From assembly GCA_019695115.1 (NCBI GenBank), contig JAIBAP010000038.1, positions 1-56,483 of the forward strand: DNA of 56,483 nt, read 5' to 3'. Position numbers and translations under genes: made by a program. Positions 770 to 56,360 of this stretch are shown here, in pieces. The notes under the pieces were generated by a model. The model did no database searches and was not told the origin of the DNA. It was given only the letters and a program-made list of their open reading frames with translations. Position 1 is the first letter of the stretch. Each line of letters starts with the position of its first letter. This stretch comes from Caldilineales bacterium (GTDB lineage Bacteria > Chloroflexota > Anaerolineae > J102).

Positions 770-883
770 ACGATGGACGACGGCACCATGCGCCATGAGC
801 GCCCTCACCCGGAACCCGGAACCCAGAACCCGGAACACCCACACACCAATCCCCAATCTCCACTCTCCACTCCCCAAACCCTC
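762..883. repeat. Heptanucleotide repeat cluster at TPR/glycosyltransferase junction
   Basis: Three short arrays with a 7-base period lie here: GGACGAT-type (about 760-783), CCCGGAA-type (808-836) and CCAATCC/CCACTCT-type (846-880). They span the TPR stop codon and encode the first 35 or so residues of the next gene. Confidence 0.85.
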
Positions 884-1963
884 GCCGTCATCCTCTGCAC
901 CCGCAACCGCCCGGCCGACCTGGCCCGCTGCCTGGCCAGCCTGGCCGCCCAAACCCGCCCTGCGGATGAGATCTGGGTCATCGATGCCTCGGAGAGGGCA
1001 GAGGACGGAGGTCAGAGGTCGGAGGACGGAGGTCAGAGGGCGGAGGTCGGAGGTCAGAGGGCGGGGGACGAAGGTCGAAGGACGAACACCACCGCCCAGC
1101 CCGGCCAATCTCCAATCCCCAATAACCAATCTCCAATCTCCAACAACCAATCTCCAATCTCCAATCTCCAATCCCCAATCCCCAACAACCAATCTCCAAT
1201 CTCCAATCTCCAATCCCCAATCCCCAATAACCACTCCCCACTAACCACCCTCCCCTCCCCCCCCGGCCTCCCTGCCCAGCGCAACCTGGGGCTGCGGCAG
1301 ACGCAAGCCGATGTCGTCGCCTTCTTCGACGACGATGTCGAGCTGGAGCCGGGCTATCTGGCGGCGCTGATGGCGGTGTACGAGCGGCGCTGGGGCGAAG
1401 GCGTGGGCGGGGTGGCGGGGTCCACGCCCGGCTGGCGGCAGTCGTCGGAGGGGGCCTGGTGGCTGAAGCGGGTGTTCGGGCTGACGCATGTGCAAGCAAG
1501 CGGCGAGGCCGTGCGGCTGCTGCCCACCCTCGGCCTCACCTGGGTGGCCCAACCCGCACACGAAATCCCCTGCGCCGCCCTCCCCGGCCACTGCATGAGC
1601 TTCCGGCGGGCGGCGCTGGATGGCATCGCCTTCGATGAGTCGTTGGGCGGCTATGCCGATGGCGAGGACATCGATGTGGGCATCCAGGTGGGCCGGCGCT
1701 ACCCGCTCTGGCAGACGCCCGACGCTCGCCTGACCCATCACAAGTCGCGGCTGCAGCGGGCCGACCTGCGTCGGCGCTTTTTCACCCGCACGCGCAATGA
1801 GCGCTATCTGCACCGCAAGCTGATGCCGCAGACGGCGTTCTACCGGCTGGCCTGGGCCTGGGGCGCGGTCGGGCGGCTGCTGGTGGCGGCGATGGTGGGG
1901 CTGCGCCAGGGCGCCCTCTCCCCACTCCACGGCGCCTGGGAGGGGCTACGCGCGGTGAAATGA
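773..1963 (+). CDS. Family 2 glycosyltransferase with in-frame repeat insertion
   Basis: The protein has 396 residues. The GT-A fold begins at residue 37 with [14 protein letters not shown], and the nucleotide-sugar/metal motif FFDDDVEL is at 185-192. An acceptor-side segment with [11 protein letters not shown] and a [12 protein letters not shown] motif follows, then a C-terminal hydrophobic stretch. Such enzymes transfer sugars from NDP-sugars to surface polysaccharides or lipids at the inner membrane. Residues 1-36 and about 74-164 are encoded by 7-base repeat arrays, so the normally contiguous step from the beta-2 aspartate region (VIDAS) to [10 protein letters not shown] is split by about 90 low-complexity residues rich in NQSPIS. 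The frame stays open through all of this. The start is uncertain: ATG 773 or ATG 788, as no start codon lies closer to the domain. The stop codon lies inside the first 91-bp hairpin unit. Confidence 0.8.
992..1086. repeat. Heptanucleotide array, GGTCAGA/GGACGGA type
   Basis: About thirteen 7-base units of the pattern GG(T/A)C(A/G)GA occur in tandem inside the glycosyltransferase frame. Because 3 x 7 = 21 bases, the encoded peptide repeats every 7 residues (EDGGQRS-like). Confidence 0.9.
1105..1257. repeat. Heptanucleotide array, CCAATCT/CCAATCC type
   Basis: About twenty tandem 7-base units (CCAATCT, CCAATCC, CCAATAA, CCAACAA, then CCACTCC) lie inside the glycosyltransferase gene. They encode alternating NNQSPIS / NLQSPIP heptads. 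Long open frames on the opposite strand (GDWRLEI-type) are by-products of the same periodicity. Confidence 0.92.
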
Positions 1964-42560: not shown

Positions 42561-42729
42561 TTGATCCCGATGAAACCTGCTAATAGCTCAAGAATAGCAG
42601 AAAACGCGGGCGCTGTCAAGCACTTTGCGACAAAAGCGCGCGAAATTCTGGACAAATAGCGCGCGCGGGGAAGTGCGTGTTCCGTCGCTCGCGCACCCCA
42701 GCAGTCCCACAGGATGGCCCGACGAAAAC

Positions 42730-42884
42730 GCCTCACGCTTCACGCTTCACGTTTCACGCCTCACGCTTCACGTTTCACGTTTCACGCTTCACGCTTCACG
42801 CCTCACGCCTCACGCTTCACGCCTCACGCTTCACGTTTCACGCCTCACGCTTTCACGGAACACGGAACACGCAACACGCAACAA
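42730..42884. repeat. Heptanucleotide array, CACGCTT/CACGTTT/CACGCCT type
   Basis: More than twenty 7-base units of CACGYYT run in tandem, passing into CACGGAA and CACGCAA units at the end. This is the longest pure array in the window. It lies between the GT4 gene end and the LysM gene region. Confidence 0.95.
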
Positions 42885-56316: not shown

Positions 56317-56360
56317 CGTTGATTGTTGATTGTTGAGTGTTGAGTGTTGAGTGTTGAGAT
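56317..56360. repeat. Heptanucleotide array, GTTGATT/GTTGAGT type
   Basis: Six 7-base units (GTTGATT x2, GTTGAGT x3, GTTGAGA) lie just upstream of the nitroreductase gene. The remaining 123 bases to the window edge show no gene. Confidence 0.85.

Follow-up and report, generated by a model that had tools for sequence, protein, structure and literature searches.

Tandem arrays of seven-base units lie inside a gene for a family 2 glycosyltransferase (GT2) of a Caldilineales bacterium (Chloroflexota, class Anaerolineae; assembly GCA_019695115.1). The gene is located on contig JAIBAP010000038.1, whose 56,483 nucleotides were analyzed as a whole and are referred to as the window. The original prediction, made from the DNA letters, took these arrays for a possible phase-variation switch of a surface sugar. 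The locus thus raises the question whether the arrays regulate this particular enzyme, or whether they have reached it by a process that concerns the genome at large.

Heptanucleotide arrays in the GT2 gene

The ORF of 396 amino acids at 773–1963 is open over its full length, and its product matched the Pfam family Glycos_transf_2 with an E-value of 5.9e-15 (56 bits, cut-off 23.3), which identifies it as a member of GT2. With this protein no NCBIfam model scored above its cut-off, leaving the assignment at generic GT2. The features of the window are as follows (all plus strand).

2–769: TPR ORF with its 5′ end beyond the contig; its stop codon TAG (767–769) lies inside a heptamer array
751–780: heptamer array with units resembling TGGACGA; it covers both the TPR stop codon and the ATG at 773, the first of the GT2 ORF
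773–1963: GT2-family glycosyltransferase ORF, 396 amino acids; further in-frame ATG at 788
807–836: heptamer array, unit ACCCGGA (TRF), in the N-terminal extension of the GT2 ORF
846–880: five degenerate CCAATCY-like units, an unscored reading by eye under the TRF score limit
993–1081: heptamer array, units GAGGTCG and AGGACGG, inside the GT2 coding sequence
1105–1247: heptamer array, units CCAATCT, CCAATCC and CCAACAA, with a 42-bp higher-order repeat (3.2 copies); encoded peptide predicted to be unstructured
1958–2385: 91-bp hairpin repeat, 4.7 tandem copies, at and behind the GT2 stop codon, distinct from the heptamer arrays
42728–42883: intergenic heptamer array, ACGCTTC units passing into AACACGC units
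56318–56358: heptamer array GTTGAGT (TRF) at the right contig end

TRF assigned the unit GAGGTCG to the array at 993–1081 (77% match; 1001–1081 at period 7, 993–1076 at period 21) and the unit CCAATCT to that at 1105–1228/1247 (83% match). The identity at a lag of seven bases was 0.77 (993–1081), 0.81 (1105–1247), 0.91 (807–836) and 0.83 (751–780), and in none of the four cases was it matched by any of 2000 base shuffles. Both internal arrays are located between the conserved segments VIDAS and GLPAQRN, and the peptides encoded by the GT2 arrays are of the SPISNLQ/NNQ and GGQRSED types. The open frame, the Pfam match and the TRF results together bear out that seven-base arrays sit in frame within an otherwise conserved GT2 gene. 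A length of about 90 residues had been given for the repeat, in agreement with the 91 residues found from VIDAS to GLPAQRN; contrary to what had been stated, the repeat is not pure: exact period-7 tracts do not exceed 27 bp because the units are degenerate, and 23 bp of non-repeat sequence separate the two arrays. The arithmetic by which a seven-base unit keeps the frame only in multiples of three is correct. The 42-bp higher-order unit is a multiple of 21 and therefore frame-neutral, which fits growth filtered by frame, although it would be met by chance in one of three cases. The earlier description covered both internal arrays and overlooked that the 5′ end of the gene is likewise heptamer-built (751–780, 807–836 and, by eye, 846–880).

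The candidate starts at 773 and 788 follow the stop of the TPR gene by 4 and 19 bases, respectively, and translational coupling of GT2 to the TPR gene is possible. Past palindromic repeats, the other neighbors are a TIM-barrel isomerase-like protein, ThuA and a Gfo/Idh-like protein; judged by Pfam, the genes adjacent to GT2 give no pointer to glycan synthesis. The 91-bp hairpin repeat folded with −40.9 kcal/mol (z −9), and its half of ~28 nt occurs 131 times in the genome, clustered with other periods (~35, 57, 71 and 74 bp) and in several cases at contig ends. The identical-looking TPR units at the left end of the contig are encoded by a 120-bp repeat (1–499; 4.2 copies, 96% alike). This repeat would stem from recent expansion or gene conversion, and its presence probably explains why the contig breaks off here.

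Homologues, fold and integrity of the GT2 protein

As the original prediction had proposed, the protein was aligned to homologues free of the insertion. Among 41 genomes searched by protein, four contained a close full-length homologue, G001 from the same genus and G006, G010 and G012 from the same family, and the heptamer arrays were absent from all four. The distance from VIDAS to GLPAQRN was 91 residues in the window protein versus 21 (G001), 23 (G010), 23 (G012) and 56 (G006), the difference to G001 amounting to 70 residues or 210 bases. At the site of the arrays, the G006 homologue carries a long non-repetitive insert, which indicates that this loop tolerates length.

The loop was also modeled, as had likewise been proposed. 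An AlphaFold2 model built with 25 sequences had a mean pLDDT of 80.6 and a pTM of 0.76, with core strands above 90 (an earlier five-sequence model was poor, pLDDT 43, and was not used). Residues 77–139 were mostly below a pLDDT of 50, and the bordering strands 66–71 and 157–161 were both present; the flanking core strands are thus predicted to be kept, with the array region as a low-confidence excursion. Foldseek matched the model to GT-A enzymes (6nqt, 4d0z, 9jn3 and others) at TM-scores by query length of ~0.4–0.5, with ~0.45–0.50 for matches such as 6nqt and 9jn3. Judging from the model, whose reach does not extend to activity, the arrays could loop out as an unstructured segment without upsetting the GT2 fold.

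All four homologues start at a common ATG, where the window reads ACT (869–871) within the 5′ heptamer stretch. The ancestral start has been overwritten by heptamers, so translation would need an upstream start at 773 or 788. This overwriting could equally mark GT2 as a gene on its way out: the arrays would then have struck a gene no longer under selection, and the open frame would be a transient accident. The strand residues RV/VV of the homologues, which read TT in the window protein, are in line with such a loss, as is the number of arrays, four in the GT2 gene being the most per gene in the sample apart from three in an E2 acyltransferase gene. However, conserved columns were changed in the window protein (8/135) no more than in the other four (13/140, 7/134, 11/138 and 14/141), and dN/dS versus G001, which mostly reflects the time before the insertion, was well below 1 (~0.24 for the C-terminal and ~0.13 for the N-terminal part). 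Column changes and dN/dS hence give no sign of decay. With a frame open over 396 codons and a confident model core in addition, we consider a decaying gene unlikely.

Heptamer arrays across the genome

The survey of arrays covered the window and 100 further stretches of 20 kb, together 2,056,483 of 5,986,056 bp. These stretches lay at fixed, non-random coordinates (C1–C37, C39, C40 and C45), and the density may be slightly too high because the repeats of C45 were already known; the assembly is a draft of 135 contigs, and array lengths may therefore be wrong. Genes were called with a home-made hexamer caller (1,629 genes, coding fraction 0.857), and an array was counted as genic only if its frame was open. 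In total 364 period-7 arrays were detected (177 per Mb), compared with 27, 22 and 21 per Mb at the control periods 6, 8 and 9; period 7 far exceeded periods 5, 6 and 8–11, with arrays at many loci. Extrapolated from this sample, the whole genome would contain about a thousand heptamer arrays.

The period-7 arrays were intergenic in 276 cases, at a gene edge in 58, gene-internal in 24 and at a gene end in 6. Thus, 334 of 364 were non-genic despite the coding fraction of 0.857, a clear excess outside coding sequence. Genic shares at the control periods were 53/56 (period 6), 25/44 (period 9) and 7/46 (period 8), the difference between periods 7 and 6 being highly significant (Fisher p 9e-42). 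As period-6 arrays, which are unable to break the frame, are nearly all genic, the depletion of period 7 in genes concerns the frame.

At least 20 families of heptamer units were found in this one genome, often as mosaics in which a single array switches from one word to another with the seven-base register kept. The commonest units in the first 61 stretches were AATCTCC, AACCAAT, ACGCCTC, AACACGC, ACCTGCC and AACAATC, and the dominant unit, GGAGATT, has two-G tracts only. An 18-base pattern of the CCAATCY family gave 212 matches in the genome versus none for the reversed control. The window array at 42728–42883 is a typical mosaic; apart from one additional T, it stays in register as its word changes from the ACGCTTC to the AACACGC type. 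Another dispersed element, which by eye is of the type CCTGAGTGAAGCGAAGGA, occurs inside or between heptamer arrays (L127:7945–10008, minus strand; L114:2456–2705); it sits in the linker of a LeuCD fusion (peptide EPVLSAAKDDRS) and in an intergenic array.

Host genes and reading frame

The 30 genic arrays belong to 22 called genes, and 24 of them are internal to 17 genes, of which L202 is doubtful. The two arrays of L202 are located in an N-terminal extension that is probably false, because the MFS match starts at residue 475. Pfam identified UbiD, an FdrA-like CoA ligase, an S8 protease (subtilase), an E2 (dihydrolipoamide) acyltransferase, a NuoG/formate-dehydrogenase-like protein, TrpF, QueG, a xanthine-dehydrogenase-like protein, an aconitase-type LeuCD fusion, CarB, a UvrD helicase, an NAD-dependent epimerase, PFOR and a phosphopantetheinyl transferase (PPTase) as hosts. 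A connection with surface polysaccharide is conceivable for two of the 17 hosts, GT2 and the epimerase; most of the others belong to central metabolism.

In-gene arrays occupy loops or linkers in CarB, TrpF, LeuCD, PFOR, QueG, the E2 acyltransferase and other hosts, and according to the Pfam borders most of them are interdomain. In E2, three linkers contain one array each (residues ~79–91, 163–180 and 223–238) around its lipoyl (4–76), E3-binding (best 185–219) and catalytic (239–458) domains, and LeuCD has two arrays between residues 427 and 546. The arrays are missing from the E2, TrpF and LeuCD homologues of related genomes, whose length varies at those same linkers or loops. Two proteins with heptamer arrays (L200:4733–5620 and L193:10354–14058) also bear in-frame repeats of triplet period (GGETQ, GGGV). 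The NuoG/formate-dehydrogenase-like ORF (L113:12912–14153, plus strand) stops at ...DHCARL*, early in the molybdopterin domain (profile position 81/353); in view of formate dehydrogenase sequences, this stop may be a selenocysteine codon.

Coding on both sides could be tested for 286 of 292 array clusters. All 12 clusters within one gene were in phase and open, and a further 21 lie between two called genes that share a coding strand. Split genes were searched for by coding potential on both sides and by Pfam, at a sensitivity restricted by 75-bp flanks and a hexamer threshold. None was found in the 19 of these 21 pairs scanned with Pfam, whose flanking sides were separate proteins. Two of the scanned pairs had one side lacking a family, and in L090 both sides were complete members of the same family. 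The pairs left unscanned were L100 (right-hand gene uncalled) and L202 (neighbor called on the opposite strand). Random array lengths would predict about two OFF genes per in-frame one, and none was found.

These data bear on the original prediction that slippage of the GT2 arrays toggles the enzyme and thereby varies a surface glycan, as in NeuO of E. coli K1. A seven-base unit in frame within a glycosyltransferase, further arrays at the 5′ end of the gene, the usual site of switches, and the precedent of a heptanucleotide inside a sugar-modifying gene, as given by NeuO (PMC13001214), are all features that such a switch would have. The arrays nevertheless contain no near-perfect run: units are degenerate, the longest exact tract in GT2 is 27 bp, and none of the 30 genic arrays reaches an exact tract of 42 bp, whereas NeuO has 3–53 repeats of one stated unit, with 42 of 64 genomes OFF (PMC13001214). 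Moreover, every one-gene cluster is ON, the hosts include CarB, TrpF, LeuCD, PFOR and QueG, and the genes next to GT2 show no sign of glycan assembly. At ~177 arrays per Mb, most of them intergenic, the claim of a switch is left unsupported, unproven rather than refuted, and we regard a switch at this locus as quite unlikely.

Encoded peptides and strand orientation

Because seven and three share no factor, every frame on a given strand of a pure heptamer array yields the identical cyclic heptapeptide (ten units checked), for example PISNLQS from CCAATCT and GGRRSEV from GGAGGTC. It follows that, in a pure array, stops are all-or-none per strand, and that slippage alters only the downstream frame and never the array peptide. 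At least one strand was open in all three frames in 26 of 30 genic versus 253 of 334 non-genic arrays.

The word CCAAT was on the sense strand in a ratio of 13:2 in genes and of 46:20 between co-directional genes (p 0.002), and the two ratios did not differ (Fisher p 0.22). Neutral spread leaves this orientation bias unexplained. The peptides of the GT2 arrays might have been selected as flexible or binding segments that tune the enzyme; they are polar and predicted to be unstructured, their word shows the sense-strand bias of 13:2, and the tandem repeats in Borg ORFs are described to form disordered regions (PMC9879509). However, the genic bias is statistically indistinguishable from the intergenic one and hence gives no basis for claiming peptide selection. 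In addition, the closest homologues manage without the array peptide, which is dictated by the DNA word and recurs in unrelated enzymes. A selected linker function is therefore very unlikely.

Distribution among related genomes

Of 298 genomes of the class, 75 contained the CCAATCY pattern. Among 301 genomes drawn from the phylum it occurred in 18, with 13 positives in the 263 that lie outside the class. The distribution of the pattern is patchy, with 0 (G001) and 1 (G002) matches in the other two genomes of the genus, and vertical inheritance of the CCAATCY words was rejected on these counts. Other heptamer families do occur in G001, where 200 kb contained 16 arrays (80 per Mb), and G029 had no heptamer array in 200 kb. 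Loss of mismatch repair was rejected as a simple cause, as the present genome is among the 273 of 298 class genomes in which MutS_I was detected. A false in-frame insert, made by short-read assembly joining repeat-bearing contigs, would suit a draft of 135 contigs with repeats at contig ends, but is scarcely credible given the same in-frame pattern in many independent genes, the CCAATCY unit in 75 of 298 class genomes and GT2 flanks that align to homologues on both sides.

Interpretation

Most likely, the GT2 arrays belong to a heptanucleotide repeat of many families that is dispersed throughout the genome, and are tolerated here, in frame, within a loop that varies and is probably disordered. 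The arrays are present at many loci, depleted from coding sequence, conserved in frame within their hosts and placed in loops that vary in length among relatives. Heptamer arrays accumulate mainly between genes; within a gene, they would persist only if the bases gained or lost overall are divisible by three, the frame in use contains no stop, and the peptide falls into an already length-variable loop, linker or terminus. In GT2, they fill the connection between two core strands of the GT-A fold and have overwritten the ancestral start codon, and the enzyme is probably made and probably folded with a disordered excursion of ~80 residues. We infer a mutational process combined with purifying selection as the cause, an active GT2 protein, and repeats without a dedicated function at this locus. 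The feature from which the analysis started is true and unusual; its meaning lies outside the GT2 gene, which is one of many tolerant sites.

Tentatively, and with more doubt than confidence, a repeat process that spreads by itself in steps of seven bases may operate in some Anaerolineae. Its register would stay constant as the word changes, and it would have introduced linkers that are disordered, free of stops and indifferent to frame into core enzymes many times over, and in doing so also replaced a start codon. If true, such a process would be a route from non-coding repeats to protein linkers. Others have proposed a link between the seven-base step and the contact length of a polymerase, as quoted in two papers (PMC4692102, PMC4679880).

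Most descriptions treat heptanucleotide arrays as curiosities of intergenic DNA or, within genes, as phase switches. Here, a visible fraction lies in frame in housekeeping enzymes, at linkers that vary in relatives, and offers a natural insertion set with which to ask what protein loops tolerate long disordered segments. The case also cautions that a non-triplet repeat in a glycosyltransferase need not be a phase switch.

Comparison with known repeat systems

No earlier account of heptamer arrays lying in frame within enzymes of Anaerolineae emerged from a literature search that covered few subscription journals. The STRR heptanucleotides of Calothrix and other cyanobacteria (Mazel 1990) are reportedly short tandem units dispersed in the genome. 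The arrays studied here resemble these by that description.

Closely related systems include the GGGNATC and GGGGA(C/T)T heptamers of Xanthomonas and Nostoc, which are dispersed, mostly non-coding, near gene ends and variable in length between relatives, and which form G4 structures, preferentially with four units (Rehm 2015, PMC4692102). The authors considered phase variation unlikely in view of ordinary metabolic host genes (PMC4692102). The present arrays share the dispersal and the mainly non-coding location, and their AATCCCC family is the complement of Nostoc GGGGATT; they differ in having at least 20 unit families, mosaics and in-frame arrays inside enzymes, and the dominant GGAGATT is not rich in four-G tracts (PMC4692102). 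The (GATAGRA)n repeat of Chloroflexus aurantiacus, a single unit in 22 satellites, has the phylum and the scattered heptamers in common, whereas the arrays described here come from another class, number hundreds and comprise many units (PMC6749651).

TAACTGA repeats of Beggiatoaceae, cyanobacteria and Bacteroidetes occur mostly in 2–6 copies just upstream of start codons, with a stop in the forward orientation, and were predicted to be tolerated between protein modules or at protein ends (MacGregor 2015, PMC4679880); they, too, are heptamers with a patchy distribution across distant taxa, but the unit differs (PMC4679880). NeuO of E. coli K1, a phase-variable O-acetyltransferase, has a single (AAGACTC)n array in its 5′ coding region, with 3–53 copies and most genomes OFF; it shares with GT2 the in-frame heptanucleotide array in a gene for a sugar-modifying enzyme, whereas its other traits were not seen here (PMC13001214). 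Finally, Borg tandem repeats are dispersed, persist in ORFs only if the frame is unbroken and create disordered segments. In Borg ORFs the unit length itself is divisible by three, whereas the unit here is seven bases long and only the total length obeys the triplet rule (PMC9879509).
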